DNA from: Ornithinimicrobium pekingense DSM 21552
GTDB lineage: Bacteria > Actinomycetota > Actinomycetes > Actinomycetales > Dermatophilaceae
Reading direction: 5' to 3'
DNA: 64,000 nucleotides
NCBI RefSeq assembly: GCF_000421185.1
Contig: NZ_ATWJ01000007.1
Location: forward strand, 310,001-374,000
Below the pieces are notes generated by a model. That model did not search any database, was not told the origin of the DNA, and saw nothing but the letters and a program-made list of their open reading frames with translations. Below, one piece after another: positions 3,546 to 23,572 of this stretch. Both the position numbers and the translations under genes were made by a program. Positions within the stretch are counted from its first letter, which is position 1; each line of letters starts with the position of its first letter.

Positions 3546-3683
3546 GCGCCTGGCGCGCGTGGGACGAAGGTCCTACGTCGGTTCGATGACGGTTTCCTGA
3601 AGGACCCTGTCCTGGCTGGAACGACGCTGCGTGGTCACGTTTACTCATGGGGCACCGTCCCCGACCTCTTGGAGCTGGCCCCG

Positions 3684-4307
3684 ATGATGATCACCCCTCG
3701 CCTCCGCCTTGCGACCGGCGCCCTGGCGCTGACCGCGTTCCTCGCCGGCTGCGGCGACTCCACCGAGACCGCAGGCGGCGGCACCACCGCCGCCGCCACG
3801 ACGGACGGTGAGCAGGCCGCCCAGGAGCACAACGAGGCGGACACGATGTTCGCCCAGATGATGATCGTCCACCACGAGGGCGCGATCGAGATGGCCCAGC
3901 TGGCCCAGGAGCAGGCGGTCACGCCCGAGGTGCAGGAGCTGGCCGCGCAGATCGAGGCGGCCCAGGGCCCGGAGATTGAGCTCATGCAGTCCTGGCTGCA
4001 GCAGTGGGGCGAACCGGCCGCCTCCGAGGACGACATGGCCGGCATGGGCCACGGCGACTCAAGCGGGATGGAGATGGACCGGATGACCCAGGAGGAGGCG
4101 ATGGCCGAGCTCGAGGGCCTCTCCGGCGAGGCCTTCGACGCCAGGTTCCTGGAGCTGATGATCGAGCACCACCGCGGCGCCGTCACGATGGCACAGACCG
4201 CCCTGGACGAGGGGCAGCACGCCGACGTGCAGGAGCTCGCCGAGCAGGTCGTGACCGACCAGGAGGCCGAGATCGAGCACATGGAGCAGCTGCACAAGGC
4301 GTTGTGA
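3684..4307 (+). CDS. DUF305 lipoprotein (copper-associated)
   Basis: This 207-residue protein begins with a lipoprotein signal peptide ending at the lipobox FLAGC (Cys23), followed by a Thr/Ala/Gly-rich linker. Two tandem DUF305 halves follow, each with a His-His motif: MMIVHHEGAIEMA and LMIEHHRGAVTMA. A Met/Asp/Gly-rich linker (DMAGMGHGDSSGMEMD) lies between them and could bind Cu(I). ATG 3684 is preferred because GGAG lies nine bases upstream; TTG 3669 would add five residues. DUF305 proteins are ferritin-like helical proteins often found with copper genes. There is a 138-base gap after the redoxin gene, so it may have its own promoter. Confidence 0.85.
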   Translation: MMITPRLRLATGALALTAFLAGCGDSTETAGGGTTAAATTDGEQAAQEHNEADTMFAQMMIVHHEGAIEMAQLAQEQAVTPEVQELAAQIEAAQGPEIELMQSWLQQWGEPAASEDDMAGMGHGDSSGMEMDRMTQEEAMAELEGLSGEAFDARFLELMIEHHRGAVTMAQTALDEGQHADVQELAEQVVTDQEAEIEHMEQLHKAL

Positions 4308-4356
4308 ACCCCGAGACGGTATGCAGCCGTGCCGGTGGTGAGAGGAGGATGGAGCC

Positions 4357-4623
4357 GTGACCTGGGTATTCACAGCCCTGCTCATCGGTGGCATCGCGCT
4401 GCTGGCCTACACGCTGGTGCGGGTAGTCGCTGGCGGCCTGGTTCCCGGACCTGGCGGGGCCGTTCGGGGTCGTTCCGGCCGGGGAGAGACCCAGCCCAGC
4501 TCACCGGAGGAGTGGTCCAGGGCCCGACGGATCCTGGACGAGCGCTACGCGGCCGGGGAGCTGAGCACGCAGGAGTACGAGCACAGGCGCGCCGTCCTGA
4601 CCGGGCGCGAGGAGGAGTCGTGA
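4357..4623 (+). CDS. Small membrane protein with C-terminal SHOCT domain
   Basis: This 88-residue protein uses GTG at 4357 with an AGGAGGA ribosome site seven bases upstream. One N-terminal transmembrane helix (residues 4-28) is followed by a Gly/Arg-rich linker and a short C-terminal SHOCT motif (ARRILDERYAAGELSTQEYE). SHOCT modules are short oligomerisation segments at the ends of bacterial proteins. The gene overlaps the multicopper oxidase start (GTGA). A similar protein lies on the other side of the oxidase, which suggests a shared membrane role in this copper operon. Confidence 0.8.
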   Translation: MTWVFTALLIGGIALLAYTLVRVVAGGLVPGPGGAVRGRSGRGETQPSSPEEWSRARRILDERYAAGELSTQEYEHRRAVLTGREEES

Positions 4624-6122
4624 GACCGGTCACCCGGCGCACGGCCCTGACCATGGGTGGACTGGGTCTCGCCACCACCGTGATAGGTGGGACGGGCCTG
4701 TGGCGTGACCTGACCACCCCCGGGGCCCCCGGTCGACCCGGTAGCGAACTGGTGGAGCCGGAGGTGATGACCAGCAGCGGCGGACGCCTGGAGGTGAGCC
4801 TGCAGGCCCGGCTGGACACGCACGAGGTGGCCGGACGGCCGGCCCGCACGATGGGCTACAACGGCGGGGTGCCCGGCCCGACCCTGCGGCTGCGCCCCGG
4901 GGACCTGCTGCGGATCGACCTGGACAACCAGCTGGACCACGTGACCAACCTGCACGTGCACGGCCTCCACGTGAGCCCGGAGGGCAACGGCGACAACGTC
5001 TTCGTCGAGATCGGACCGGGGGAGAGCCAACAGTACGAGTACCAGCTGCCGAAGGACCACCCGCCGGGGGTGTACTGGTACCATCCCCACCACCACGGCA
5101 GCGTGGCCGACCAGCTGTTCGCCGGGCTCTACGGCGCCATCGTCGTTCAGGAGCACGACCCGCCGTCCGTCGACCGGGAGCGGGTGCTGGTGGTCTCCGA
5201 CATCACCCTGTCGCAGGACGGGGCGGTTCTCAGTCCCTCGATGCCCGAGCGGATGATGGGCCGCGAGGGCGAGCTGCTCCTGCTCGACGGCCAGCTCGAG
5301 CCGGTCCTGAAGGCACGCGGCGGCGATCGGGAGCGGTGGCGCGTCGTCAACGCCTGCTCCTCCCGGTTCTTCTCCTTGCGGCTGTCCGGCGAGGGTAGCT
5401 CCGCACGGGTGGTGGGCCGCGACGTCGGCCGCCTGCCCACCCCGGTGGCTCTGGAGGAGGTGGTCCTGGCGCCGGGCAACCGGATGGACCTGCTGGTCGA
5501 CCTGTCCGAGGGCACCGGTGAGCTGCTCGCCGTCCCGGTGGACCGCGGCCAGATGATGGGCGGGATGATGGGCGGCGCCGTCGGCCCGGAGGACTCCGAG
5601 CGGGCCCTCGCCCGCCTGGAGGTCGCCCAGGGTGCACAGTCCGGAACCGCTGTCGCGAAGGACGACGCCACCCGTGGGCCCGAGGGTTTGCTGCCCGACC
5701 TGAGGGACACGCAGGTCGACCGGCGTCGCGAGCTGACCATGGAGATGTCCATGGGCGGGATGATGGGCGGGAACCGCGGCCGCGGCCCCGGCGGGATGAT
5801 GGACCTGACCATCGACGGCCGGACCTTCGACCACGACCGCACCGACCAGCAGGTCCGGCTGGGCACCGTCGAGGAGTGGTCCATCGGCAACGTGGGCCCG
5901 ATGGACCACCCCTTCCACCTGCACGTCTGGCCGATGCAGGTCATTGACGTCGACGGGCAGCGGCCTGCGGACCCGCTCTGGCTGGACGTGGTCAACATCC
6001 CGGCCGGCGGCAGCGTCACCGTGCGCATCCGGTTCGCAGACTTCGGCGGTCGGACGGTCTACCACTGCCACATCCTCGACCACGAGGACCTCGGCATGAT
6101 GGGCACCGTCCTGGCCGAGTGA
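4620..6122 (+). CDS. Multicopper oxidase (CueO/SufI-like), Met-rich
   Basis: This 500-residue cupredoxin protein begins with a Tat-like signal (TRRTALTMGGLGL), so export in folded form is likely. The four copper-ligand motifs of multicopper oxidases are present in order: HVHGLH (about residue 111), WYHPHHHGS (153-161), HPFHLHVW (about 430) and HCHILDHEDLGMM (482-494), the last with the Cys, His and Met of the type 1 site. Two Met/Gly-rich inserts (QMMGGMMGG and MEMSMGGMMGG) resemble the Cu(I)-binding methionine segment of CueO. Expected role: oxidation of toxic Cu(I) outside the membrane using O2. It is flanked by SHOCT and DUF305 genes and coupled by GTGA to the upstream gene. Confidence 0.92.
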   Translation: MRPVTRRTALTMGGLGLATTVIGGTGLWRDLTTPGAPGRPGSELVEPEVMTSSGGRLEVSLQARLDTHEVAGRPARTMGYNGGVPGPTLRLRPGDLLRIDLDNQLDHVTNLHVHGLHVSPEGNGDNVFVEIGPGESQQYEYQLPKDHPPGVYWYHPHHHGSVADQLFAGLYGAIVVQEHDPPSVDRERVLVVSDITLSQDGAVLSPSMPERMMGREGELLLLDGQLEPVLKARGGDRERWRVVNACSSRFFSLRLSGEGSSARVVGRDVGRLPTPVALEEVVLAPGNRMDLLVDLSEGTGELLAVPVDRGQMMGGMMGGAVGPEDSERALARLEVAQGAQSGTAVAKDDATRGPEGLLPDLRDTQVDRRRELTMEMSMGGMMGGNRGRGPGGMMDLTIDGRTFDHDRTDQQVRLGTVEEWSIGNVGPMDHPFHLHVWPMQVIDVDGQRPADPLWLDVVNIPAGGSVTVRIRFADFGGRTVYHCHILDHEDLGMMGTVLAE

Positions 6123-6538: not shown

Positions 6539-7120
6539 ATGTCCACCCCGCACGAGCAGCACAGCCAGTCCGACCAGGACCACAAGCAGCACCAGAAGCA
6601 CGAGCGGAGGATGTACCTGACCTTCGCCGCGATGATCACCACCTCGACGGTGACCATGTTCCTGCTGACCTACACCAACGCCTTCACCTGGTCGCACATG
6701 ACGTTCAGCGAGGAACGGCTCTACATGGCCCTGCTCATGGGCTCGGCGATGGCGATCATCATGCTCGGCTTCATGTGGGGGATGATGTACAAGAACGTCA
6801 AGGTCAACCTGGCGATCATCGCCGGCGCCCTCGTCCTGGGCCTGACCGCGCTGTGGCTGTCCCGCTCCCAGACGCTCGTGGACGACCAGGCCTACATGAA
6901 CGGGATGATCCCGCACCACTCGATCGCCATCCTCACCAGCGAGCGCGCCGACATCGACGACGTGCGCGTGCGCGAGCTGGCCGACGAGATCATCGAGGCC
7001 CAGCGCAAGGAGATCGCCGAGATGAAGTGGCTCGTCGACGACATCGAGAGCAACGGCGTGGTCACCACCACCGAGGAGGCCGAGCAGCGCCCCGTCCCCG
7101 AGTTCGAGGGCACTCCTTGA
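6539..7120 (+). CDS. Membrane DUF305 protein
   Basis: This 193-residue protein has ATG 6539 with AGGAAGGA upstream. The first 27 residues are very rich in His and Gln (HEQHSQSDQDHKQHQKHE), a possible metal-binding tail. Three hydrophobic helices follow (about residues 28-48, 60-81 and 86-104), then one DUF305 domain with QAYMNGMIPHHSIAILTSE and a long acidic helix. Compared with the lipoprotein at 3684 it has a single DUF305 half and its own membrane anchor. It follows the oxidase/SHOCT genes on the same strand and probably belongs to the same copper regulon. Confidence 0.82.
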   Translation: MSTPHEQHSQSDQDHKQHQKHERRMYLTFAAMITTSTVTMFLLTYTNAFTWSHMTFSEERLYMALLMGSAMAIIMLGFMWGMMYKNVKVNLAIIAGALVLGLTALWLSRSQTLVDDQAYMNGMIPHHSIAILTSERADIDDVRVRELADEIIEAQRKEIAEMKWLVDDIESNGVVTTTEEAEQRPVPEFEGTP

Positions 7121-8178: not shown

Positions 8179-8195
8179 GTGCGGGGAGGCCTGTC

Positions 8196-8758: not shown

Positions 8759-8896
8759 GGACCTGGTGCGTCGGCGGTTGTGGATCGCGGTCTCGTCGTC
8801 GTTCTCCTTCTGTACGATGCCCGGTCCTTGTACCGGGCGGGATGACTGGACCTGGGACGAAGTCCGCAGGTCAGACTGGAATCGTCGTCTGGTTGT

Positions 8897-9448: not shown

Positions 9449-10846
9449 TCACAGGGAGACGGAGGCCCAGAGGGCTCCGGCTCCGATGCCGAGGAGGAGG
9501 CTCACGGCTGCGGTCCCGATGGCCGTGCTGCCTGACCAGCGACCTGGTGCATCCGCGTCCTGGCGGTGCCCCGCCGCCTCCTGGCGCGCGTAGAGGGGCG
9601 CGATCCAGCGCAGGTAGTAGAAGAGGCTGACGACGGTGTTGAGGAGGACGAGCACGGCCAGCCAGGCGTACCCGGCGTCCCAGGCCGCGGCGGTGGTGGT
9701 CAACTTTCCGACGAAGACCACGGTGGGTGGGGTACCGACGAGCCCGAGGAGGGCCACGACCAGGGCTGCGCCCAGCCACGGATGGGTTCGGCCCATGCCC
9801 CGGTAGGAGCGCAGCTCGCGCCGCTGGGGGAAGGCGGTGGTGACCGCGAACGCCGAGAGGTTGGTGACGGTGTAGCCGGCGAGGTAGAGCAGCAGCGAGG
9901 GCAAGGCGAGGTCGCTGCGTCCGGCGACCGCGACCGGCACGAGCAGGTAGCCCACCTGGCTGACGGTGGACCAGCCCAGCAGGCGTCGCGGGTCGGTCTG
10001 CCAGTAGGCGGCGAGGTTGCCCAGCGTCATGCTGGCCACGGCCAGCAGCGCGACCAGCAACGGCCAGGCCAGGGTGTCGGGAAGCAGCTCGACGAGCCGG
10101 TATGCCGCGATGACCGCCCCGATCTTGGGCACGGTGGTGAGGAACGCCGCGACGGTCCCGCCGGCACCCTGGGCAGCGTCAGGGACCCAGAAGTGGCCTG
10201 GGGCTCCTCCGGCCTTGAACAGCAGCCCGCCCAGCACCGCCACGACGCCGGCGGCGACCACGCCTGCCGGTGCGTCGGCGAGCCTGTCGGTCAGCTCGGC
10301 GTAGGACGTGGTGGCTGTCACGCCGTAGAGGAGCGTGACCCCGGTCAGCAGCAGGATGCCGAAGAGGGCACCCAGCAGGTAGGTCTTCATCGCGGCCTCG
10401 GCGCCCAGGGGTGTGCGGGCGATCCCGATCAGGCCGTAGAGGGGGACGCTGGCCAGCAGGAACCCGACGGTGACGACGAGCAGGTCGTCCGCACCGGCCA
10501 GGATCAGGGTGCCGGTGGTGGAGAACAGCAGCAGCGCGTAGGTCTCGCTCTCCCGCGGGGTGCCGGCGATCTCGTCGGAGGCCAGGGCCAGCACGACGAG
10601 GGTGCCGAGCGCGGCGACGATCCGGGCGACCCCCGTGGTGGTGTCGACGGTGAACGTGCCTTCCATCGCCACCTGCGCCGGGCCGGGCAGGTCCAGGGCG
10701 GCCAGGGCGGCCGCCAGGAGCAGGGCGGCCGCGGTGACGGCACGGGTGACCCACTGGCGGGTCCGCGCCAGGAACGATCCTCCCAGCAGGGCCGCGAGCC
10801 CACCGAGGAACAGCACGATCTCCGGTGCGAGCAGGGCCGGCCGCAT
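9449..10846 (-). CDS. nuoN: Complex I-like membrane subunit N
   Basis: This 465-residue antiporter-like subunit has about 13-14 hydrophobic helices. Family features are visible: the helix-7 Lys region (LLFKAGGAPGHFWVPDAA), the central SVPLYGLIGIART segment and LLGWSTVSQVGYLLVPV. ATG 10846 sits about nine bases after GGTGGAG; upstream in-frame starts at 10852 and 10861 are possible. It is the last gene of the nuo operon, 21 bases after nuoM. NuoN-type subunits carry one proton channel in the membrane arm; the conserved Lys and His suggest it is functional. Confidence 0.9.
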   Translation of the reverse strand: MRPALLAPEIVLFLGGLAALLGGSFLARTRQWVTRAVTAAALLLAAALAALDLPGPAQVAMEGTFTVDTTTGVARIVAALGTLVVLALASDEIAGTPRESETYALLLFSTTGTLILAGADDLLVVTVGFLLASVPLYGLIGIARTPLGAEAAMKTYLLGALFGILLLTGVTLLYGVTATTSYAELTDRLADAPAGVVAAGVVAVLGGLLFKAGGAPGHFWVPDAAQGAGGTVAAFLTTVPKIGAVIAAYRLVELLPDTLAWPLLVALLAVASMTLGNLAAYWQTDPRRLLGWSTVSQVGYLLVPVAVAGRSDLALPSLLLYLAGYTVTNLSAFAVTTAFPQRRELRSYRGMGRTHPWLGAALVVALLGLVGTPPTVVFVGKLTTTAAAWDAGYAWLAVLVLLNTVVSLFYYLRWIAPLYARQEAAGHRQDADAPGRWSGSTAIGTAAVSLLLGIGAGALWASVSL

Positions 10847-10867
10847 GGCCATGGACTCCACCGCGGT

Positions 10868-12364
10868 CTACCTCCCGACGAGCTGGACGAGGACCTGCGC
10901 CGCGGGCTCGATGACGTCGAGCAGCGGGCGGGGGAGGACCCCGATGAGCAGCGAGAGTGCCAGCAGCGGCCCGATGGCCCACAGCTCGGCGGGACGCAGG
11001 TCACCGAAACCGGCGGAGGCGCCCTGGGTGGCGCCGGTGAAGATGCGTTGCAGCGCCCGTAGGAACAGGGCGGCGGTGATGAGGATGCCCAGCAGCGCGA
11101 CCGCGGTGACCGGTGCCGCGGCGATGCTGCCGGTGAAGATCTGGAACTCGGCGATGAAGCCGGACAGGCCGGGCAGGCCGAGCGAGGCGAACGCCCCGAC
11201 GGCGAACAGCGCCGCGAGCCTGGGGGCAGGGTCGGCCAGACCGCCGTAAGCGCCCATGTCGTAGGTGCCGGCCCGATCCCACATCACCCCCGCGACGAGG
11301 AACAGGGCGGCGGTGACCAGGCCGTGGCTGACCATCTGGGTGACGGCACCGGTGACCGCCACGGACCGCGCCTGGGCGGTGTCGCCGGCGACGATCCCGG
11401 CGGCGCCGACGGCCAGCACGACGTAGCCCATGTGGTTGACCGAGGTGTAGGCGACCATGCGCTTGAAGTCGGTCTGGGCCAGCGCGACCAGGGCGCCGTA
11501 GACGACCGACACGATGCCGACCACGACGATCACCCAGGCCCAGGCCCGCCACGCCTCGGGCAGCATCGGCATCGCGATCCGGACGAACCCGTAGGTGCCC
11601 ATCTTCAGCAGGACGCCGGCCAGGACGGCCGAGCCGATGGCGGGTGCGTCGGTGTGAGCCGGCGGCAGCCAGGTGTGGAACGGCACCGTGGGCGTCTTGA
11701 CGGCCAGCCCGAGCAGGATCGCGGCCAGCACCAGCGCACCGGCGGTCGACGACCCCGTCAGCGGGGTCTGCTCGGCCAGGTCCACCATGTCGAAGGTGTG
11801 CGGGTCGGCGGCGACGTAGAGACCGATGAAACCGGCCAGCAGGGCCAGGGAGCCCAGGAAGGTGTAGAGGAAGAACTTCAGCGCCGACCGGCCGGCGTCC
11901 CCGTGGCCCCACCCGGCGATCACGAAGTACATGCCGACGATGGACAGGTCGAAGAAGAGGAAGAACAGGATCAGGTCGGCGGCGACGAACAGGCCCAGGC
12001 TCACGCTCTGCAGGAACAGGAACAGCGCCGCCTGGGTCCGAGGTCGGTCGTTGCTGCGCAGCGCGAAGACCGCGCAGGCCAGGAAGACCACCGCCGTCAT
12101 CGCCACCAGGGGCAGGGACAGCCCGTCCACCCCCACGTGGTAGCTGCTGTTCACCCCGGGGATCCACTGCGCGCGCTCCTCGAACGCCAGCCGACCCGCG
12201 ACCGGTGGCTCATAGGCCAGCCACAGCGCAGCGACGAGGGCCAGGTCGACGGCGGCCACGGCCACCCAGGCCCACCGTGCCGCCCCGTCGCCCAGCCGTG
12301 GCAAGGCCATGAGGGCCAGCGCGGCGGCCAGGGGCAGGAAGACGATCAGACTGAGCACGTTCAC
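10868..12364 (-). CDS. nuoM: Complex I-like membrane subunit M
   Basis: This 498-residue protein starts at a GTG that overlaps the nuoL stop (GTGA). It shows the NuoM signatures: YHVGVDGLSLPLVAMTA near residue 85, FFLFFDLSIVGMYFVIAGWG, the helix-7 Lys motif LAVKTPTVPFHTWLPPAHTD, and FKRMVAYTSVNHMGYVVLAV. These include the conserved Lys and His of the proton half-channels. It is similar in length to canonical NuoM (about 500 residues). It lies between nuoL and nuoN in the usual order. Confidence 0.92.
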   Translation of the reverse strand: MNVLSLIVFLPLAAALALMALPRLGDGAARWAWVAVAAVDLALVAALWLAYEPPVAGRLAFEERAQWIPGVNSSYHVGVDGLSLPLVAMTAVVFLACAVFALRSNDRPRTQAALFLFLQSVSLGLFVAADLILFFLFFDLSIVGMYFVIAGWGHGDAGRSALKFFLYTFLGSLALLAGFIGLYVAADPHTFDMVDLAEQTPLTGSSTAGALVLAAILLGLAVKTPTVPFHTWLPPAHTDAPAIGSAVLAGVLLKMGTYGFVRIAMPMLPEAWRAWAWVIVVVGIVSVVYGALVALAQTDFKRMVAYTSVNHMGYVVLAVGAAGIVAGDTAQARSVAVTGAVTQMVSHGLVTAALFLVAGVMWDRAGTYDMGAYGGLADPAPRLAALFAVGAFASLGLPGLSGFIAEFQIFTGSIAAAPVTAVALLGILITAALFLRALQRIFTGATQGASAGFGDLRPAELWAIGPLLALSLLIGVLPRPLLDVIEPAAQVLVQLVGR

Positions 12365-14298
12365 CTCACCGTGAGCAGGAGCAGGACGCCGACCGCGAGG
12401 ACCGCGACGGCCTGGACGTAGTAGTGGTGCAGCTGCCCGCTCTGCGGGCGTCGCGCCAGCCGGCCGGCCTGGCGCACCCGTGCCGCGAGCTGCTCCACGG
12501 CGCCGTCGAGCCACCGGTCGTCCGCACGCCTGGCACGCTGCGCCGCTTCCACGCTCACGCGGGAGCCGGACTCCACGGCGCCGTCGAGCACCTGGTCGTC
12601 GAACCTGGCCGCCCGACGCGCCAGAGCGAGGGTGCCCGCTGCGGACCCGGTCACGGCCCGGTCCAGGACGTGGTCGTCGAAGCGCCCCAGCACCTGTGCC
12701 AGCGCCAGGGTCGGCCGGACGAGCAGCTTCCGGGTCACCGGTTCCAGACCGAGCCAGTCACGCGCCCATACCGGCTGGGGTGCTGGACGCCACCAGACGA
12801 GCGCGAGCACGGCCAGCGCGATCCCCGCCGAGGCGAGCATCTCCACGGGGGTGGGGTGCAGCGGTTCCTCGCCGAGCGCGCGGGCGAGGGTGTCGCCCAC
12901 CGGCGGGAGCGCGAGCAGGCCCAGGACCAGCGCACCCACGGCGAGCACGACCATCGGCGCGTGCTCGAGCACTCCGACGCGGCCCGTGCCGGGCTCCTCC
13001 TCGTCGACGTGCCCCTCGACCAGGGCCCGCTCCGCGGCAGGCACGTGCCGCCACAGGACGACCAGGATCTTGCCGGCGTAGGCCGCCGACAGGGCGGCAG
13101 CGGCCAGTCCCACGGCATACAACCAGGGTGAGCGCGCCAGGGCCGCGGCCAGGACCGCGTCCTTGGTCGCCCACAGGGCCAGGGGCGCGACCCCGGCCAG
13201 CGAGAGCACCCCGAACGTGCTGGCCCACCCGACCAGCGGCCAGCGCCGACCCACCCCGCGCAGGCCGGTCAGGTGCTTGGTGCCCAGCGCGGTGAGCCAG
13301 GCACCGGCGGCCAGGAACAGCAGCGCCTTGGTCGAGGCGTGCGCCACCAGGTGTGCCGCGCCGCCGCTGACCGAACCCAGCCCGGCGCCCATCACCACGA
13401 AACCGAGCTGGGCCGAGGTGGAGGCCGCGAGCAGCTGCTTGAGGTCCCGCTGGGCCAGCGCCACGGCGCCGAGCAGCAACGCGGTCACCGCGCCGGCCCA
13501 GGCCGCGGCCGGCGCGGCCCAGCCCGTGGAGGCGAGCAACGGCTCGGTCCGCAGCAGCAGGTAGCCGCCCATAGCGACCATCGCGGCCGAGTGCAGCAGC
13601 GCACTGACCGGACTCGGGCCCTCCATCGCCCGGGACAGCCAGAACGAGAACGGCAGCTGGGCCGCCTTACCCAGCGCCGCGACCACGACACCGGCCGCCA
13701 CCACGTGCCGCCACCCCTCACTGCTCTCGGGCAGGTCGGCCAGCGCCAGCCCGGCTCCGCCGGCCAGGGCCGCGCCGGCTGCGAGGTAGAGACCGACGTC
13801 CGCCGCGCGGGTGGTCACGAACGCGGTGATCCCGGCGGAGACCCGGTGCTGCTCGCGCCACCAGAACCCGATCAGCGCGAACGACGTCGCGCCCATGACC
13901 TCCCAGGCGAGCAGCAGCGCTGGCAGCGTCTGCGCGGTGGCCGTCAGGAGCGCGCTGGAGGCGAAGATGAGCATGAGCCCGTGGAACCGTGCCTGCGACC
14001 GCCGGATCTCGCCGGCCGAGAAGAGCAGTACAAGCAGGGTGACGAACGTCACGGTCGGCACGACCAGTGCCGAGAGCGCGTCCACGCCGAGGGCCAGGTC
14101 GCTGCCGGCCATGAAGGGCACCGACACCTGCGGTCGGGCCAGGGCCACGAGCAGCGACAGGGCAGCGGTCAGGCCGGCTGTGGCCAGGGACATGGGCGCC
14201 GCGGCACGTTCGAGACGCGAGAGGGCCAGGGCGCCGCCGACGACCGCGGGCATCAGCACGAGCAGCCAGAGAGCGGCCTGGGCCATCGACGGGCTCAT
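12361..14298 (-). CDS. nuoL: Complex I-like membrane subunit L
   Basis: This 645-residue protein starts at ATG 14298, overlapping the nuoK stop by ATGA. Proton-pump motifs are present: LLLAWEVMGATSFALIGFWW with the key Glu, LGKAAQLPFSFWLSRAMEGP with Lys, and PVSALLHSAAMVAMGGYLLL with the conserved His. After the 14-helix core, residues 540-620 form a long amphipathic segment with three repeats of the type DDHVLDRAV, DDQVLDGAV and DDRWLDGAV, then a final helix, matching the lateral HL helix of NuoL. This long arm argues that the membrane arm still assembles in complex I style. Confidence 0.92.
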   Translation of the reverse strand: MSPSMAQAALWLLVLMPAVVGGALALSRLERAAAPMSLATAGLTAALSLLVALARPQVSVPFMAGSDLALGVDALSALVVPTVTFVTLLVLLFSAGEIRRSQARFHGLMLIFASSALLTATAQTLPALLLAWEVMGATSFALIGFWWREQHRVSAGITAFVTTRAADVGLYLAAGAALAGGAGLALADLPESSEGWRHVVAAGVVVAALGKAAQLPFSFWLSRAMEGPSPVSALLHSAAMVAMGGYLLLRTEPLLASTGWAAPAAAWAGAVTALLLGAVALAQRDLKQLLAASTSAQLGFVVMGAGLGSVSGGAAHLVAHASTKALLFLAAGAWLTALGTKHLTGLRGVGRRWPLVGWASTFGVLSLAGVAPLALWATKDAVLAAALARSPWLYAVGLAAAALSAAYAGKILVVLWRHVPAAERALVEGHVDEEEPGTGRVGVLEHAPMVVLAVGALVLGLLALPPVGDTLARALGEEPLHPTPVEMLASAGIALAVLALVWWRPAPQPVWARDWLGLEPVTRKLLVRPTLALAQVLGRFDDHVLDRAVTGSAAGTLALARRAARFDDQVLDGAVESGSRVSVEAAQRARRADDRWLDGAVEQLAARVRQAGRLARRPQSGQLHHYYVQAVAVLAVGVLLLLTVR

Positions 14299-14597
14299 CG
14301 GGTCAGGTCCGTGGCCATGTCGGTCATGTCGGCCTGCCGTTCCCGGTGCAGCAGGGTCGCGACCGCGAAGCCCATGGCCATCTCCAGGGTCATCGCCGCG
14401 ATCACCACCAGGAGCAGGACCTGCCCGGTGGGGGCGGGCGCCAGGAACCACCAGAACCCGGCAGCGGCCAGGATGACCGCGTTGATCATCAGCTCCAGGC
14501 CCATCATCACCATCACCACCACCTGCTGGGAGATCGCGCCGTACAGGCCGACGGAGAAGATGGCGGCGGCGATGAGGAGGGTCGCCTCCAGGGTCAT
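14295..14597 (-). CDS. nuoK: Complex I-like membrane subunit K
   Basis: This 100-residue protein has three helices. The two membrane glutamates essential for proton transfer in NuoK are both recognisable: VMMGLELMINAVILAAAG in the second helix and IAAMTLEMAMGFAVA in the third. ATG 14597 overlaps the nuoJ stop. Retention of these residues suggests that proton translocation is preserved although the electron-transfer subunits are missing from the operon. Confidence 0.92.
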   Translation of the reverse strand: MTLEATLLIAAAIFSVGLYGAISQQVVVMVMMGLELMINAVILAAAGFWWFLAPAPTGQVLLLVVIAAMTLEMAMGFAVATLLHRERQADMTDMATDLTR

Positions 14598-15157
14598 CGG
14601 CCCACACCTCCGCGCTGAGGGTCCTCGGGGGTGCGCTGCTTCAGGTCGTCGCCGAACCGGTCGTACCGGGTGCGGTGCGCCGCGAGCACGACGCCGGCCA
14701 CGATGGTGGCAACCATGACCGGGCTGATCACGGCCATCACGAGCATCTTCGGGCCCATGAGGGCCTCGCCGAGGGACACGGTGACCTCCGGTGGTGGGCT
14801 GCCGCGGCGGGTGGGCCAGTCCACCAGCAGGATGCCGGCCGCCAGCACCAGGAAGGTAAGGACCGCTGTCGCGACGGCGGTTCTGTTGCTGTGGACCATG
14901 CTCATCGGCGTCAAGGCGGGATTCATGCCCATGAACATGACCATGTAGACGGCCATGATGGCCATCTCCATGACCATCATCAGGATGGTCACCACGCCGA
15001 CGTAGTTCTGCTGCAGGAACAGCACCTGCAGGCCCACCGCGACGAAGGACAGGGCCAGGGCGTACGTGGCGCGGGCCATCGAGTCGACGTAGAAGACCGC
15101 GGCGCCGCTGATCACGGCGACCAGCCCGAGGCCCCAGAAGGCGATGTCTGCGACCAC
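14594..15157 (-). CDS. nuoJ: Complex I-like membrane subunit J
   Basis: This 187-residue protein starts at GTG 15157 and has five hydrophobic helices. It shows the NuoJ motif with the pi-bulge helix region (QQNYVGVVTILMMVMEMAIMAVYMVM), although this segment is unusually rich in Met and the usual GAIMVLFLFV-type run is changed to TILMMVMEMAIM. The C-terminal tail is hydrophilic. It is two bases from the nuoH stop and overlaps nuoK. Confidence 0.88.
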   Translation of the reverse strand: MVADIAFWGLGLVAVISGAAVFYVDSMARATYALALSFVAVGLQVLFLQQNYVGVVTILMMVMEMAIMAVYMVMFMGMNPALTPMSMVHSNRTAVATAVLTFLVLAAGILLVDWPTRRGSPPPEVTVSLGEALMGPKMLVMAVISPVMVATIVAGVVLAAHRTRYDRFGDDLKQRTPEDPQRGGVGR

Positions 15158-15159
15158 GG

Positions 15160-16140
15160 TCAGGCCCTCCAGACGGCGATGACGGCGACGAGCAGGTCCT
15201 GGACAAGCACGGCCGGGAGCAGCACCATCCAGCCCACCTCCATGAACGTGTCGGGCCGGAAGGCCGGCAACCGCCGCCGCAGCCAGACCAGCAAGGAGAG
15301 CACGGCCAGCATCTTGACCACCACCCAGGCCCAGTCAGGCAGCAGCGGACCAGCGCCCCCGCCGAGGAACATCGGCACCGAGAACGCCGCACCGGCCGCC
15401 AGCAGGGCGTAACGACCCGTCTCGAACACCAGCCCGTCCACCCCGGACAGCTCTGCCCGCACACCGCCGGCGATGTCGCTGCCCAGCGCCGGGGCGAACG
15501 GGCCCCACACCGAGAAGGCCGCGACCCCGAGCAGGTAGACGAGGAAGGCGACCGGCATCCACACCGCGAACCACAGCCCGTCCTGGACCGCGGCGACCGT
15601 GCCCACGTTCAGGCTCTCCGCGGCGATCGCCGGAGCGACCAGCGCAAACATCAGCGGCAGCTCATAGCCCAGCCCGTGCGCCAGGAACCGGTAGCCCCCC
15701 ACCAGCGAGTGCACCGAGTTGGCGCCCCACCCGGTCAGCCACACCAGGGCCCAGACCAGGACGTCCATGGCGTTGAACCACATGACGCCAACGCCCAGGT
15801 CGAAGATCGTCCACCGCCCCAGCGGGATCACCGCCACCATCAACGCGGCCGTGACGACCAGCCCTGCCCCGCCGACGCGCCACAGCAGGGTGTCGGCCTG
15901 CACGGTGGTGCGACGCCGTTGCCGCATCAGCCGCGCGGCCTCGCCAAAGGGGCGCGCCGCCCCGCTCGCGCCAACGCCCGGCCCGCCGCCGGAGCGTGCC
16001 GACAGGGCGCCGTCGAGCATCCCTGCGACGAGGACCAGGGCACCGAGGATGGCCACCGCACCCAGCGCCCAGCCGGGCGCCACTGTCACGACTGGGGAGT
16101 CCGGCACGCCTGGGCTCTGCACCAACGCCAGCTCACCCAT
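15160..16140 (-). CDS. nuoH: Complex I-like membrane subunit H with degenerate quinone loop
   Basis: This 326-residue protein has eight hydrophobic helices and overlaps the upstream gene by eight bases. General NuoH features are kept (FDLGVGVMWFNAMDVLVWAL, FETGRYALLAAGAAFSVPMF). However, the quinone-cavity loop, normally rich in acidic residues with an EAE...GYHxEYSG pattern, reads GSDIAGGVRAELSGVDGLVF here. The loss of most of these acidic residues suggests that the quinone chamber is altered or absent. This agrees with the missing nuoC, nuoD and nuoI genes. Confidence 0.85.
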   Translation of the reverse strand: MGELALVQSPGVPDSPVVTVAPGWALGAVAILGALVLVAGMLDGALSARSGGGPGVGASGAARPFGEAARLMRQRRRTTVQADTLLWRVGGAGLVVTAALMVAVIPLGRWTIFDLGVGVMWFNAMDVLVWALVWLTGWGANSVHSLVGGYRFLAHGLGYELPLMFALVAPAIAAESLNVGTVAAVQDGLWFAVWMPVAFLVYLLGVAAFSVWGPFAPALGSDIAGGVRAELSGVDGLVFETGRYALLAAGAAFSVPMFLGGGAGPLLPDWAWVVVKMLAVLSLLVWLRRRLPAFRPDTFMEVGWMVLLPAVLVQDLLVAVIAVWRA

Positions 16141-17482
16141 GGGCCGCCTCGTGCTGGGCGTGGTGGGCCCGCAGCTCGTGAAGGTCGAGGCTGGCCAGGA
16201 CCAGACGTGCAGCCGCGAGGTCCAGTCCGACGACCAGCGTCCCCAGGTGCCCGGCGAAGGCAGCCGGGCGGTCGCCGAGCCGGGAGGCCGTGGCCGCACG
16301 GTCCACCATGCGGACCAGCCTGTCGTAGGTATCGCCTGCGGAGTCCGCGGGCAGCCCCTGGTGGCGGACCTCCTCCTCGGTCAGCGGACCCAACCCCCGC
16401 AACGACCAGCGCAGCAGCCGCGAACGACGCACCCGGCGCTGGAGCCGCTCAAGGCCCCTCAGGTCCACCGGTCCGTCCCCGGCCCCCAGTGCCACCTCGC
16501 GGAGCCTCCGTGCCTGGGCCGCGGCATCCTCCCACCCCGCCAGCGCCAGGACGGAGACAAGGTTGTCCAGACTGCGGGCCCGGGCGTCGGCCTCGTCCCC
16601 GGCCTCCTCCTCGGCGCCGAGCACCTCAGCGCGTGCCTCGGTCACGACGTCCCCCTGCAGCGAGCAGTGCAGCACCAGTCCTGCCGGCCAGTAAGGCAGC
16701 ACCGGGCCCAGCCGGACCTTCAGGACGTCCATCTCCAGACCGTCCCGGTCCTCCCCGCCCCCCGCCAGAGGGATCCCGCCAGGGGACATGTCCATGCCGT
16801 CGTGGCCGCCGTGACCTCCGTGGTCGCCGTGGCCTTCGTGTCCACCGCCTCCACCGTGGCCTTCGTGCCCCTCTGCGTTCTCATGGGCGTCGGGCTCCTC
16901 GGGACTTGCAGGGTGCCCATGGTGTCCCTGGTGCGCGTCGTGATCCTCGGTCGGAGAAGTTGGCGCTGCCTCGGCGTGCTCCTCGTGACCGGCATGCTCC
17001 TCGTGACCGGCATGACCCTGGTGCTCGCTGTCAGCATGACCTGAGTCGTCCGCTACCGGCTCAACGTGGTGGTCGTGGCCACCGTGCGCGTGTTCGGTCT
17101 GACTGTCGTGAGAATGGCGTGCGAGCAGATCGTCTGATCTGGGTCGGTCCACCGCGTCGTGCCGGTGGCGGTCGGGGGCGAGGAGGAGTGCGTGTGCCTC
17201 GTCGAGGACGGCCGCGACGTCCTCGTGCCGAAGGGCCTGGACGAGCACCCGCGGCCCTGGCATCTGGTGCCACAACTGGTCGACGGCCTCGCTGAGCCGT
17301 GGCCCGGGAGTGCCGCACACAACGAGAACGTCAGCGTCTGCCGGGGAACGGGCCACTTGCCATCCACGCGCGAGCACCGCGCGCTCGGCCACCATGCGCG
17401 TCCGTCCCCATCCGGGCACCTCGACCAGCAGGGCGTGCGCGTACCGCGCGGCCACGCGCGAACTCGCCTCGCTCAGACCCAT
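16133..17482 (-). CDS. NuoB-like / His-rich linker / NuoD-like fusion without catalytic residues
   Basis: This 449-residue protein fills the nuoB-nuoD position between nuoA and nuoH. Residues 1-110 resemble NuoB: SPADADVLVVCGTPGPRLSE followed by VDQLWHQMPGPRVLVQALR matches the NuoB pattern of ADVLIVAGT, then KMAPALRRLYDQMPEP. The Cys ligands of iron-sulfur cluster N2 are absent. Residues 120-250 are extremely rich in His, Glu and Gly with HEEHAGHEEHAE-type repeats. Residues 255-300 (VLKVRLGPVLPYWPAGLVL, then LQGDVVTEA) recall the NuoD N-terminal beta sheet, with lower certainty. The rest is helical, Arg- and Leu-rich. ATG 17482 overlaps nuoA by ten bases. It may be a structural cap on the membrane arm, or a metal-binding peripheral subunit. 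Confidence 0.75.
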   Translation of the reverse strand: MGLSEASSRVAARYAHALLVEVPGWGRTRMVAERAVLARGWQVARSPADADVLVVCGTPGPRLSEAVDQLWHQMPGPRVLVQALRHEDVAAVLDEAHALLLAPDRHRHDAVDRPRSDDLLARHSHDSQTEHAHGGHDHHVEPVADDSGHADSEHQGHAGHEEHAGHEEHAEAAPTSPTEDHDAHQGHHGHPASPEEPDAHENAEGHEGHGGGGGHEGHGDHGGHGGHDGMDMSPGGIPLAGGGEDRDGLEMDVLKVRLGPVLPYWPAGLVLHCSLQGDVVTEARAEVLGAEEEAGDEADARARSLDNLVSVLALAGWEDAAAQARRLREVALGAGDGPVDLRGLERLQRRVRRSRLLRWSLRGLGPLTEEEVRHQGLPADSAGDTYDRLVRMVDRAATASRLGDRPAAFAGHLGTLVVGLDLAAARLVLASLDLHELRAHHAQHEAAHG

Positions 17483-17817
17483 CGCAGGGCACCTTCCCGC
17501 CACGCCCAGAGGACGGCGACGAACAACGCAGCAAGGAAGAGGAACATCTCGACGACCGCCGTGGTGCCGATCTCGGCGACGACGACGGCCCAGGGGTACA
17601 TGAACAACATCTCGACGTCGAAGGCGAGAAAGAGGAGGGTCGCCAGGTACCACCGCACGTGGTACCGGGACAGCGCGTGCTGCTCCGGGATCCAGCCCGA
17701 CTCGAACGGGAGCACTTCGAGGGGATCCGGCGTAACCGCCGTGCGCCGGTGCAGCCCGTACAGCAAGAACACGGGTACGACGGCTGCGACGGCCATCACG
17801 ACGACACCCAGGTACAT
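17473..17817 (-). CDS. nuoA: Complex I-like membrane subunit A
   Basis: This 114-residue protein has three helices and the NuoA signatures LPFESGWIP (normally YECGxxP, so the usual Cys is Ser here) and RYHVRWYLATLLFLAFDVEMLFMYPWA, including the conserved FDVE acidic pair. ATG 17817 follows a GGAGGG ribosome site. It is the first gene of the operon; transcription must start within 17818-18566. The Cys of NuoA normally lies at the mobile quinone-site loop, so its replacement fits loss of quinone chemistry. Confidence 0.9.
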   Translation of the reverse strand: MYLGVVVMAVAAVVPVFLLYGLHRRTAVTPDPLEVLPFESGWIPEQHALSRYHVRWYLATLLFLAFDVEMLFMYPWAVVVAEIGTTAVVEMFLFLAALFVAVLWAWREGALRWV

Positions 17818-18566: not shown

Positions 18567-19568
18567 TCAGGTGCCGCAGACCAGCTTCGGTTCGTAATGC
18601 AGCACCTGTTTGCCATGGGGCGATGATGCCCCTGGATCGAGATCGTTGGAGTCCGCACGGACTAGGTCAAGGATCGATGCGCACATGTCCTCGACGGGTT
18701 GACGGACGGTGGTGAGCGGGGGATGGGCGAAGGCGGCCGGCCCGATGCCGTCGAAGCCGATCACACGGAAGTCCTCAGGGACGCGGATGCCGTGGCTGCG
18801 CAGTCCCGAGATCAGACCTAGGGCGATGATGTCTGCCGCAGCTACGAGAGTCGCGTTGTGGGTCCCCTCCGCGATGAGTTGCTCAGCCGCAGTGATTCCC
18901 CAGGCCAGCGAGAAGGTCCCGAGCATGGTGCGGGCGCCGGGGAAGTGCTGCTCGAAGCCTTGCAGGCGCTCTCTTGCCGACGATGACTTTGCGCCGGCTC
19001 CAACGAAAATGACTTCCTTTGCTGGTGGAGCGGTCGTGAGGATGTGTTCGGCGATGAGGTCCATGCCGTATCGGTTGTCGCAGCCGACAAACGTCGCCGG
19101 GGCTCCTTCGACCCTGCGGTCGAACTGAATCGTCAGAGCCTTCGAAGATGCAAACTGGACGGTCTCCGCGCTTTGCGCTTCGTCACATGCGATGATCACG
19201 ACGGCGTGGACCTGTCGTCCGAGAAAGGCGCGAACGCCCTCAGCCTCGGCCTCCACCGACCCTCCGGCGCTGGAGACCAGTAGCTCGAAGCCTGCGGCTC
19301 GCATCGTACGGCTCATGTGTTCGGTGAGGGATGCGAAGAACGGGTTCTCCAGGTCGGGCACGCTCAGACCCACGACGGGGTGGCGCTGCTGGCGCAGTGC
19401 CCGCCCCAGGAGGTTTACCTGGTAGTTGAGCTCCGCGGCGCTGGCCATGACTCGGGATCGCAACTCCTCGGACATTGGGCGAGTACCGCTGAGGGCCCTG
19501 GACGCCGTCGCAAGAGAGACCCCTGCGTGGGCGGCGACGTCCTTGATGGTGACCCGCTTGTCAGGCAT
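18567..19568 (-). CDS. LacI-family transcriptional regulator
   Basis: This 333-residue protein has ATG 19568 after an AAGGAGGGG ribosome site. The N-terminal helix-turn-helix VTIKDVAAHAGVSLATASRA and hinge helix are typical of LacI. Residues 60-330 form a periplasmic-binding-protein-like sugar-sensing domain (VVGLSVPDLENPFFASLTEH and VIGFDGIGPAAFAHPPLTTV). It is divergently transcribed from the ABC transporter genes, with a near-palindromic operator beside their start. It probably represses the cluster until the imported sugar or nucleoside binds. Confidence 0.92.
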   Translation of the reverse strand: MPDKRVTIKDVAAHAGVSLATASRALSGTRPMSEELRSRVMASAAELNYQVNLLGRALRQQRHPVVGLSVPDLENPFFASLTEHMSRTMRAAGFELLVSSAGGSVEAEAEGVRAFLGRQVHAVVIIACDEAQSAETVQFASSKALTIQFDRRVEGAPATFVGCDNRYGMDLIAEHILTTAPPAKEVIFVGAGAKSSSARERLQGFEQHFPGARTMLGTFSLAWGITAAEQLIAEGTHNATLVAAADIIALGLISGLRSHGIRVPEDFRVIGFDGIGPAAFAHPPLTTVRQPVEDMCASILDLVRADSNDLDPGASSPHGKQVLHYEPKLVCGT

Positions 19569-19699
19569 CCACCCCTCCTTGCCTCGTTCTGTCGTCACCC
19601 CTTGCGCCTCTGTGTCTCGTGACCGGATCGTGACCGAATCTAGCGAGGAGACCTCTTGCCAAGGGGGGTGGTGGACAGGCTAACGTGTCCCCACCCGCT

Positions 19700-19715
19700 C
19701 GGTAAACGTTTTCCG
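19700..19715. promoter_or_regulatory. Probable LacI operator in front of the ABC transporter genes
   Basis: CGGTAAACGTTTTCCG is a 16-base near-palindrome with the central CG and flanking A/T triplets typical of LacI/PurR-family operators (one mismatch between the half sites). It lies 22 bases before the binding-protein start and in the gap shared with the divergent lacI-type gene, a position suited to block transcription. Confidence 0.75.
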
Positions 19716-19736
19716 AGGATCCCGCATGGAGGCATC

Positions 19737-20708
19737 ATGACAACGACCAGTCCCCGTCTCACCGCCCTCGCCGCCGCAGCACTGGCTACGACGCTCCTGG
19801 CTGCATGCAGCACCGGGAACGAGGAGCCGACCACCCCCGACGCCGCTGCAGGGAGTGAGAACGGCTCGTCCGACTCCTGCACGATCGGCATGACGCAGAT
19901 CAACCAGACCGCGATCTTCTTCACCCAGATGAACGAGGGCGCCCAGGAGGCCGCTGACGAGCTCGGCTGTGAGCTGACGATCGCCAACGCCAACAACGAC
20001 TCCGCACGGCAGAGCAGCGACATCGAGAACTTCGTCAGCCAAGGTGTCGACGGCATCATCGTCGTGGCCATCGACGTCAACGGCGTGGGGCCCGCGGTCG
20101 ACGCTGCCCGCGACCAGGACATCCCGGTCGTTGCCATCGACGCACAGCTCGACAACGTGGACACGTTCGTGGGTGTCGACAACGAGGCCGCCGGCAAGGA
20201 GGCGGCCGAGTGGTTGATCGAGAACGGCATGGCCGAGGGCAAGAGCTACGGCGTGGTGGACGCGAAGAACTCCTTCATCCAGAACCAGCGCGAGGACAGC
20301 TTCCGCGAGGTGATCGACGCCGCCGGTGCCGAGTACACCCAGAGCGTCAACGGCGACAACGTGCAGGAGAAGGCCGCGACCGCGGCCCAGAACCTGGTCA
20401 CCGCCCAGCCTGACCTCGACTTCGTCTACACCACGGGGGAGCCGGCCACGGTCGGTGCCGTCTCGGCGCTGAGCCCCGACAGCGACACCGTGATCGTCGG
20501 CTGGGACTTGACCAAGGAGGTCATCGCTGGCATCGACAGCGGACTGGTTCATGCCGTGATTCAGCAGAACCCCCGTCAGGAGGGTGTGGAGGCAGTCACC
20601 GAGCTCAAGGCGATCCTCGACGGAGCCGAGCCCAAGGGGTTCATCGACGTCCCGATCGACATCGTGACCCAGGAGAACGTCGAGGAGTACCGGGCGATCT
20701 TCAACTGA
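19737..20708 (+). CDS. Ribose-type ABC transporter substrate-binding lipoprotein
   Basis: This 323-residue protein has a signal peptide with lipobox LLAAC (Cys24), a Ser/Asp/Glu-rich linker, and a periplasmic-binding-protein type I domain of the RbsB group (TIANANNDSARQSSDIENF, GVDGIIVVAIDVNGVGPAVD, VAIDAQLDNVDTFVGVDNEA). It captures the sugar or nucleoside outside the cell for the permease and ATPase encoded next. It starts the LacI-controlled operon, with ATG 19737 after GGAGG. The exact ligand cannot be read from the sequence; downstream nucleoside hydrolase and ribokinase favour a ribonucleoside or ribose derivative. Confidence 0.9.
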   Translation: MTTTSPRLTALAAAALATTLLAACSTGNEEPTTPDAAAGSENGSSDSCTIGMTQINQTAIFFTQMNEGAQEAADELGCELTIANANNDSARQSSDIENFVSQGVDGIIVVAIDVNGVGPAVDAARDQDIPVVAIDAQLDNVDTFVGVDNEAAGKEAAEWLIENGMAEGKSYGVVDAKNSFIQNQREDSFREVIDAAGAEYTQSVNGDNVQEKAATAAQNLVTAQPDLDFVYTTGEPATVGAVSALSPDSDTVIVGWDLTKEVIAGIDSGLVHAVIQQNPRQEGVEAVTELKAILDGAEPKGFIDVPIDIVTQENVEEYRAIFN

Positions 20709-20746
20709 TCCCCATCCCGATGCGTAACGACCCGGAGGTTGAACCC

Positions 20747-21481
20747 ATGACACCCACTGCTCGCGTAGAGATGGTGGACATCCGCAAGAAGTTCGGTGCC
20801 CTGTCGGTGCTCAGGGGAGTCAACCTCCGGGTCGCCCCCGGTGAGGTCATCGGCCTCGTCGGTGACAACGGCGCCGGCAAGTCCACCCTGATGAAAATGC
20901 TGGCTGGGGCTGTCACGCCCGACTCAGGCCGCATCCTCGTCGACGGTGAGGAGATGACCGGTTCAGGTCCGCGGGCCGCTCGCTCCGCGGGCATCGAGAT
21001 GGTTTACCAGGACCTGGCCTTGTGCAACGACCTCGACGTCGCGGCCAACCTGTTCCTGGGCCGGGAGATCTACCAGCCGTGGAGCCGCCGCCTCGACCAC
21101 GGACGCATGCATGCGGAAGCTGCTGAGGACCTCAAGAAGCTGCACATCCGGATCTCGGACACCTCCCAGGAGGTGGGGAACATGTCCGGAGGGCAGCGGC
21201 AGGCGATCGCCATCGCCCGGGCGGTCACCTTCGACCCCAAGGTTCTGGTGCTCGACGAGCCGACCGCTGCACTGGCGGCCAAGGAGGTCGAGATGGTGCT
21301 GCAGCTGATCCGCGACGTCTCAGCGCGCGGCGTCAGCGTCGTGCTCATCACTCACCGCCTGCAGGACCTCTTCGAGGTGTGCGACCGCTTCGTGGTCCTG
21401 TACGAGGGCGTGCTGCACCGTGAGCTCGACCCCGCCGAGACCGATCTGACCGAACTGGTCACCGCCATGATGGGAAAGTGA
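20747..21481 (+). CDS. Sugar ABC transporter ATP-binding protein (single NBD)
   Basis: This 244-residue ATPase has Walker A GDNGAGKST, signature MSGGQRQAIAIARA, Walker B VLVLDEPTAAL and the switch His in LITHRLQD. Most ribose/xylose importers (RbsA, XylG) have two fused nucleotide-binding domains of about 500 residues; this one has a single domain like FrcA, so two copies would dimerise. ATG 20747 is chosen because GGAGG lies about eight bases upstream; ATG 20720 would add nine residues. It follows the binding protein and precedes the permease by seven bases. Confidence 0.9.
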   Translation: MTPTARVEMVDIRKKFGALSVLRGVNLRVAPGEVIGLVGDNGAGKSTLMKMLAGAVTPDSGRILVDGEEMTGSGPRAARSAGIEMVYQDLALCNDLDVAANLFLGREIYQPWSRRLDHGRMHAEAAEDLKKLHIRISDTSQEVGNMSGGQRQAIAIARAVTFDPKVLVLDEPTAALAAKEVEMVLQLIRDVSARGVSVVLITHRLQDLFEVCDRFVVLYEGVLHRELDPAETDLTELVTAMMGK

Positions 21482-21488
21482 GCGCCTC

Positions 21489-23557: not shown

Positions 23558-23572
23558 GACAAAGGAGAACTC

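Follow-up and report, generated by a model that had tools for sequence, protein, structure and literature searches.

A complex I-type operon with a NuoB–NuoD-like protein in Ornithinimicrobium pekingense, possibly a new kind of metal transporter

What can the membrane arm of complex I do when no genes for electron input accompany it? The question is raised by an operon in a stretch of 64,000 nucleotides (the window, to which the positions below refer) of Ornithinimicrobium pekingense DSM 21552 (contig NZ_ATWJ01000007.1, positions 310,001 to 374,000), in which nuoA, a gene here called X, and nuoH, J, K, L, M and N follow one another on the minus strand, down to position 9449. NuoC, NuoE, NuoF, NuoG and NuoI are absent from the window operon. 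X occupies 16133-17482 (449 codons and a stop among the open reading frames of the window, with the ATG at 17482); its start overlaps with nuoA and its end with nuoH (ATG at 16140). Judging from homology, conserved residues and gene neighbourhood, we put at about 0.5 the probability that X, together with NuoAHJKLMN, makes up a redox-dead complex I relative which acts as a proton-coupled antiporter of a soft metal, probably Cu(I), and relieves copper stress.

Protein X and its operon

A first-pass annotation of the window, made from the letters alone, had described the gene between nuoA and nuoH as a NuoB-type core without the cysteines of the iron-sulphur (FeS) cluster N2, followed by about 130 residues of His-rich linker and a segment resembling the NuoD N-terminus. 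Its coordinates were exact; the strand, which it left unstated, is minus. The NuoB-type core was recovered as a weak match of X residues 43-81 to TIGR01957 (NCBIfam; E=1.8e-4, 21.4 bits, with a curated cut-off of 142.7). PF01058, the Pfam model of NuoB, gave E=0.11 and 12.6 bits, under its gathering score of 27, and the best relative of X reached 22.8 bits. The homology to NuoB is therefore based on profile comparisons and not on the Pfam gathering score. Three forms of X (short, as in the window; middle, as in Halomonas; and long) were compared by hhalign, with the three rows without an anchor (L027, L054 and L043) omitted from the N-domain sets. The N domains matched NuoB with probabilities of 95.7% (short), 96.4% (middle) and 97.7% (long), and NuoD with less than 1%. 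In profile searches of the PDB, the family profile of residues 1-112 reached NuoB chains at 1.6e-6 with short N domains, and mixed N domains reached NuoB/MbhJ-type chains at best at 9.5e-12.

NuoB ligates cluster N2 through four cysteines. No Cys was found at the N2 ligand positions of X that correspond to CC..E, and the part with the other two ligands was not recognisable. The single Cys in the NuoB-like region, C56, aligns with a non-ligand position. The linker that follows has the length first estimated, 130 residues, and contains 27 His, 27 Gly, 16 Glu and 14 Asp.

The NuoD-like part was reached by a longer route. A Pfam scan of the window X gave no match to PF00346 (NuoD), nor to any other Pfam family in the C-terminal part. 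Compared directly with NuoD, the short-form C domain scored 7.6% and the middle form 2.4% (hhalign), and a PDB profile search with the short form gave nothing significant (best XPA at 0.06, NuoD at 0.21). The long-form C domain matched NuoD with a probability of 99.6% over 315 columns reaching the NuoD C-terminus (NuoB, 0.05%), and found MbhL at 4e-24 and also NdhH/NuoD chains in the PDB. PF00346 was above its cut-off in 7 of the 10 distant relatives scanned and in two of the three X proteins scanned from Sulfitobacter, Halomonas and M. avium. As the C domains of the short and middle forms matched that of the long form with 99.1% and 99.3%, respectively, the link of the window protein to NuoD is transitive, from short form to long form to NuoD. 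Profile searches with the two ends of X, suggested at the outset, thus reached NuoB, though below cut-offs, and reached NuoD only through the long form. The resemblance to NuoD stands and is not confined to its N-terminus; the alignments point to a whole, degenerate NuoD.

The quinone-site His and Tyr of NuoD sit in its GPQHP and R.DY motifs. The first reads GPLFP in the long form and GPVLP in the window X. The second, RMDYLTP, reads R.DPLSP in the long form, and no alignment was obtained for it in the short form. By these comparisons X is a NuoB–NuoD fusion without FeS ligands and quinone motifs, in which the homology to NuoB is direct and that of the short form to NuoD transitive.

Complete nuoB and nuoD genes next to the operon would have made this relationship doubtful; the ordinary NuoB and NuoD of the genome are encoded on other contigs. 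One of these carries a longer nuo set (A, B, D, E, H, I, J, K and the start of L, some by frame reading). A further partial nuo operon of the same genome (L017, G000:C1:68001-88000) has matches to nuoA, B, H, L, M and N and, by frame reading, nuoC. It gave no NuoD match; at the expected place of nuoD, between nuoC and nuoH, there are a glyoxalase-like frame (by reading) and apparently non-coding sequence.

A protein search for X matched 25 of 97 genomes, the own genome included, in 10 of 57 genera; two matches (G018 and G039) were weak and perhaps due to chance. Gene order was inspected in 20 of the 24 matched relatives (G004, G018, G019 and G039 were left out). X directly follows nuoA in all 20, and 19 have the complete order A-X-H-J-K-L-M-N; the remaining contig stops after X. 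With a profile of the C-terminal part of X, matches were obtained in 30 of 396 genomes from the whole phylum, in some of them over short stretches only. A plasmid search with X gave 16 matching records, every one actinobacterial. The long form, annotated as "heavy metal-binding domain-containing protein", lies beside nuoA on plasmids of Rubrobacter, Sulfitobacter, Paracoccus and Roseovarius, and the operon as a whole recurs in Actinomycetota and on plasmids of Alpha- and Gammaproteobacteria.

In a NuoM tree (with midpoint rooting only, and with long branches for five of the other rows, two of which meet), the 41 X-type rows formed one group (98/87), apart from the 18 other rows. The long forms (with Sulfitobacter), the middle forms (with Halomonas) and the short forms appeared as successive groups, which indicates that the operon crossed phyla. 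The view that the hydrophilic arm was reduced here to a catalytically dead cap fits in that the FeS and quinone motifs are lost and the arm of A, H, J, K, L, M and N is complete. It does not hold as a recent loss in this genome, because the operon is common to many genera and has crossed phyla.

The segment between the two domains differs among the forms. In 16 short-form sequences the linker, His- or Met-rich, has 15-220 residues and 0-44 His. The middle form lacks a His linker and has a short stretch of Gly and Met (GQGGEGMMGG). In the long form the NuoD-like part is almost full-length and is mostly accompanied by one or two PF19335 domains with His/Met repeats; in Rubrobacter and Sulfitobacter the PF19335 lies within the linker, together with His and Met. 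PF19335, a heavy-metal-binding domain, was above cut-off in 5 of 10 distant relatives and in the Sulfitobacter X, and not in the Halomonas or M. avium X. In the middle-form X proteins L043-L053 and L127, a conserved GQGGEGMMGGxPYGRPMA-like stretch stands where the short form has MDMSPGGIPLA. A His-rich linker as a core feature of the family was considered and ruled out, given the 0-44 His of the short forms and none in one subgroup. X is nonetheless likely to bind metal, judging from the His/Met linker here and PF19335 in relatives.

Methionines and proton residues of the membrane arm

The subunits of 41 X-type operons were compared with those of 17-23 other nuo operons per subunit, including two of the own genome and that of E. 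coli; a few of the latter (e.g. L017) are not of the 14-subunit type. Rows L004 (a near copy of L003), L024 and L035 (broken frames) and L036 (contig end) were omitted from the methionine comparison. Met was counted on the aligned tblastn stretches. It made up 9.8% of NuoJ in the X-type operons (8.2-11.5, n=41) and 2.5% in the others (0-4.2, n=20), with no overlap (p=3.1e-10, a value that treats related rows as independent). Met content was also higher in NuoK (8.8 versus 4.4%) and NuoA (4.9 versus 2.7%). NuoH, NuoL, NuoM and NuoN of the X-type operons are poorer in Met than those of the comparison operons, which rules out base composition as the source of the methionines.

NuoJ M27, M60, M61, E64, M65, M68, M72, M85, M87, H89 and M138 were present in 41/41 X-type rows and in 0/20 of the others; M76 was present in 41/41 and 1/20. 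The same held for NuoA H53, M70 and M73 (41/41 versus 0/23) and NuoK M69 (41/41 versus 0/19). NuoJ M61 takes the position of E. coli Tyr59, the gate in transmembrane helix (TM) 3, which is Tyr in all 20 comparison rows. On a helical wheel of NuoJ helix 3, M61, M65, M68, M72 and M76 fall on one face within about 80 degrees, with E64 beside them.

Most of the proton-path residues are kept. At the 13 NuoL and NuoM positions tested, each residue was conserved in 38-41 of the 41 rows (among them NuoL E144, K229, H254, H338, K342 and K399; NuoM K234, K265, H322, H348 and E407, and E144 as Asp in 34 and Glu in 7). The equivalents of NuoK E36 and E72 are kept in 40-41 of 41, as is NuoA E81. On the quinone side, NuoH has mostly lost D213, E216 and E218, and 38 rows have Arg in place of E241. 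The X-type operons have thus kept the proton residues of NuoL, NuoM, NuoK and NuoA and lost the FeS, quinone and NuoJ-gate residues.

Two plasmids, of Methylobacterium fujisawaense and Rhodopseudomonas BAL398, carry nuoA-H-J-K-L-M-N without X; this pair adjoins the X-type group in the NuoM tree (100/97). In the TM3-4 loop of their NuoJ, after helix 3, about 100 residues rich in His and Met are inserted. By eye, the gate Tyr is kept and the Glu is missing, and their ladder therefore differs. A DUF305 gene lies directly upstream of the Rhodopseudomonas copy, with a CusA gene about 8 kb off; in Methylobacterium the DUF305 gene is about 5.5 kb off.

Copper neighbourhood and proposed function

The first-pass annotation had noted a copper island beside the operon. 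Beyond nuoN, the window holds a cation-efflux gene, CcdA- and thioredoxin-like genes, two DUF305 genes, a multicopper oxidase and an ion channel. The cation-efflux gene (291-1487) gave only a partial family match and seemingly continues in another frame; a DUF305 gene at 8181-8760 (minus strand) appears split across two reading frames. Copper markers were counted within 25 kb of X in 40 of the 53 X-matched genomes, 11 of the 40 belonging to the own genus. Multicopper oxidases were found in 17/40, DUF305 in 22/40 and the CsoR family in 19/40 (expected 1.4, 1.6 and 1.4); none of 20000 simulations reached these counts under a null model of random gene placement that takes the genomes as independent. 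Outside the own genus the counts were 11/29, 14/29 and 15/29, with about one expected for each. At least one of the three markers was near X in 30 of 40 genomes; the association with copper genes is real across the family and not universal. The ordinary nuo loci of G000, G106, G112 and G121, a four-genome control, had none of the three markers within 25 kb.

Copper-type neighbours were found in eight of ten named plasmid records. They include CusA, CopB and a copper oxidase (Sulfitobacter), a copper-resistance oxidase, CopB and an azurin-like protein (Halomonas), DUF305 and an oxidase (Arthrobacter FB24) and a nearby heavy-metal ATPase (M. avium pMAH135). In Rubrobacter tropicus a metal ATPase, a metal-sensitive regulator and a copper-binding protein come immediately before nuoA, and a Xanthobacter copy that ends within X lies beside a bilirubin oxidase.

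We infer a soft-metal path since the NuoJ and NuoA elements carry Met, Glu and His, the metal-type linker, whether in X or in NuoJ, would sit at the cytosolic entrance, and the neighbouring genes handle copper. More specifically, and with slightly less confidence than in an antiporter as such, we suggest that complex I may have become a Cu(I)/Ag(I) pump driven by protons, with a metal-receiving cap, a methionine ladder of NuoJ, NuoK and NuoA through the membrane, and proton channels that power metal export. The His/Met-rich or PF19335 segment of X would hand a soft metal ion, most likely Cu(I), to the former quinone cavity beneath this protein. The metal would enter at the cytosolic loops of NuoA (H53) and NuoJ (M27, M85, M87 and H89) and pass down the methionine face of NuoJ helix 3 (M76, M72, M68, M65, E64 and M61), where Mrp has part of its Na+ path, to end in the periplasm. 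Proton entry through NuoL, NuoM and NuoN would pay for the export, by the logic of Mrp. Export as the direction of transport is the least certain of these steps.

The strongest competitor is a metal-gated proton valve, in which copper bound to the linker of X would open or close the NuoL/M/N proton channel and so tune the proton gradient under metal stress, and no metal would cross. Metal-responsive control of proton flow was the idea originally favoured. It accords with the metal-type linker or PF19335 on the cap, with the kept proton residues and with the copper neighbourhood. Control from the cap, however, does not call for invariant Met, Glu and His within NuoJ, NuoK and NuoA, and the His-rich linker is missing from a whole subgroup in which, as in all 41 rows, the NuoJ methionines persist. 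Because the invariant residues lie in these membrane subunits, a metal path fits better than a regulator on top, and we now regard the valve as an unlikely rival.

An ion pump for marine or osmotic conditions is the role given in the literature, in which a partial NDH-1 operon pumps H+ or Na+ and aids life in salt water. The proposal comes from genome comparisons of Salinispora, Kocuria flava S43 and Streptomyces SM17/SM18, in the excerpts consulted (PMC3314556, PMC6002675, PMC6676996), and several hosts found here are indeed marine. No redox input is left for a primary pump, however, Met stands here at the NuoJ position where Mrp has its cation-binding Glu, and soil and clinical hosts carry the operon. 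The same excerpts name operon-bearing strains from copper-rich mine fluids or copper mineral and read them as osmotic cases; one of the papers, in naming the strain from mine fluids, extends the idea beyond the sea. We consider such a pump improbable.

Just as improbable is a role in copper supply, in which the complex would import copper or hand it to neighbouring multicopper oxidases or to oxidase assembly. Oxidase, Sco and CcdA-type genes do lie near several loci; against it, several of the genes nearby serve efflux or resistance (CusA, P-type ATPase, CopB), and the metal-binding segment is predicted to be cytosolic. Least probable of all is a redox pump in which X-bound copper stands in for the FeS clusters in electron exchange with quinone, for although the architecture of the old quinone chamber, the ligand-rich cap and the nearby oxidases would suit it, the His/Tyr quinone motifs of NuoD are lost in the aligned forms, the quinone-side loop of NuoH is partly lost and the gate Tyr59 of NuoJ is gone.

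Several observations weigh against the proposed antiporter. The His-rich linker is missing from a whole subgroup (e.g. Halomonas, L043-L053), and a Pfam scan of the window X gave no match to PF19335. NuoN E133, which we equate with the coupling-site Glu of MrpD, is lost in 41/41 rows (two as gaps), and the analogy with Mrp is inexact for this reason; NuoN K217 is Glu in 11/41, with K247 and K395 kept. In NuoH, E220 (Asp or Glu) and E228 stay, so that the quinone-side loop is only partly lost. Membrane orientation was taken from the positive-inside rule and a review of ordinary complex I. AlphaFold models built from three near-identical rows had a mean confidence (predicted local distance difference test, pLDDT) of 40.0 for X and 47.6 for NuoJ, too poor to test anything. 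Ten of the 40 genomes, including two from the own genus, had none of the three copper markers near X, and neither DUF305 nor the CsoR family is strictly specific to copper. On plasmids of Rhodococcus and Gordonia the operon had mobile or unrelated neighbours and, in an incomplete gene table, no annotated copper gene within 12 kb. In the Kocuria flava genome, as far as the excerpt goes, the copD genes lie in a different region from the nuo genes (PMC6002675).

The coordinates of the operon and of the neighbouring copper-type genes are given in Table 1. Upstream of nuoA, 18567-27400 probably holds a catabolic operon unrelated to it: a LacI-type regulator and, by frame reading, sugar ABC transporter, phosphotriesterase-like, nucleoside hydrolase-like and kinase genes. 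Farther along, 29500-57000 is a long cluster resembling a phage-tail-like contractile injection system, with baseplate-like and sheath-like proteins and an AAA ATPase (labels by reading of frames). It includes a large Ala/Pro/Lys-rich protein at 50792-55000 with tandem repeats of 6-66 bases. Near it, at 60984-63557, a protein of 857 residues is caspase-like by reading.

Table 1. Features of the X-type operon and of the adjacent copper island (positions in the window)
Feature	Positions	Strand	Evidence
nuoA	17473..17817	-	PF00507 2.3e-26
X, NuoB-like domain, residues 1-112, without N2 cysteines	17147..17482	-	TIGR01957, hhalign, PDB profile search
X, linker of metal-binding type, 130 residues, 27 His; end near GMDMSPGGIPLA	16757..17146	-	composition
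X, putative degenerate NuoD-like domain, residues 243-449	16136..16756	-	transitive hhalign via long form; PF00346 in relatives
nuoH	15160..16140	-	PF00146 7.7e-44
nuoJ, methionine ladder M60, M61, E64, M65, M68, M72, M76, then M85, M87, H89	14594..15157	-	PF00499 9.8e-9
nuoK, with E35 and E72 retained; M29, M31, M69, M73 typical of X-type group	14295..14597	-	operon and residue comparison
nuoL, start codon assumed	12361..14298	-	PF00361 1.1e-46
nuoM, start codon assumed	10868..12364	-	PF00361 2.6e-65
nuoN	9449..10861	-	PF00361 4.8e-47
Ion-channel protein (Ion_trans_2), also in loci L003, L004, L019, L020	7164..8084	+	PF07885 1.8e-9
Membrane-type DUF305 protein; by eye resembles the one directly upstream of the Rhodopseudomonas X-less operon	6539..7120	+	PF03713 3e-9
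Multicopper oxidase of copper island, true start uncertain	4329..6122	+	PF07732 4.6e-26, PF07731 1.1e-24
DUF305 protein of copper island	3669..4307	+	PF03713 3.8e-48

Comparison with known systems

With complex I (NDH-1) and those of its relatives that lack the NADH module, the operon shares homologous NuoA, H, J, K, L, M and N, and X appears to derive from NuoB and NuoD. Unlike complex I, it is without NuoC/E/F/G/I, the N2 cysteines, the quinone motifs, NuoJ Tyr59 and NuoN Glu133. In complex I, the NuoJ helix-3 gate and the TM3-4 loop behind it are described in an excerpt of one study as communicating with the loop of NuoA by which the quinone cavity is closed (PMC10212512). How complex I couples the quinone site to distant proton channels has long been argued. 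In a relative without electron chemistry, with methionines as the NuoJ gate and the proton channels kept, coupling would become testable with a visible, titratable metal substrate.

Mrp is a non-redox relative. According to the part of its structural description consulted (PMC7419157), a cation at the NuoJ/NuoK-like core is exchanged for protons; Na+ passes the residue equivalent to NuoJ Tyr59 and goes through the NuoK-like subunit, and protons move the opposite way via the NuoL/M-like subunits. Mrp has a cation-binding Glu at the Tyr59 position and two His in its NuoK-like subunit, whereas the X-type operons have Met at the former and their NuoK keeps Glu. Mrp is also without NuoH, in the same source, whereas the X-type operon has it, and the X-type gene row leaves no space for separate MrpE/F/G genes. 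If the proposed antiporter is real, it would be, after redox and Na+/K+ exchange, a third kind of coupling in the complex I superfamily, carried by plasmids from phylum to phylum together with copper islands.

Proteins with PF19335, such as heavy-metal P-type ATPases, share this domain with the long-form X, which has one or two of them above cut-off. In the relatives of X it sits inside the NuoB–NuoD fusion; the window X has the His-rich linker only.

By its gene order, nuoA-hypothetical-nuoH-J-K-L-M-N, the window operon matches the published marine adaptation operon. This order is in print (PMC6676996), and seven nuo genes of the partial operon are listed in the other two accounts (PMC3314556, PMC6002675), in the portions consulted. 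In the portions seen, X is hypothetical (white genes in the legend are those without UniProt or PDB homologs) and the role osmotic or Na+/H+, and no NuoB/NuoD identity, methionine path or copper role is given. Incomplete sets of complex I genes in general are tallied in a 2025 survey, according to the extract consulted (PMC12361115). Within the terms and library searched, no paper assigned a copper role to the operon, a name to X or a derivation from NuoB and NuoD. The operon itself was thus already known; new are the identity of X, the copper-marker neighbourhood, the methionine signature of NuoJ and the pattern of kept and lost residues. They would give an identity to the gene left hypothetical in that operon, suggest a function linked to copper and add a possible new class of plasmid-borne metal transporters.

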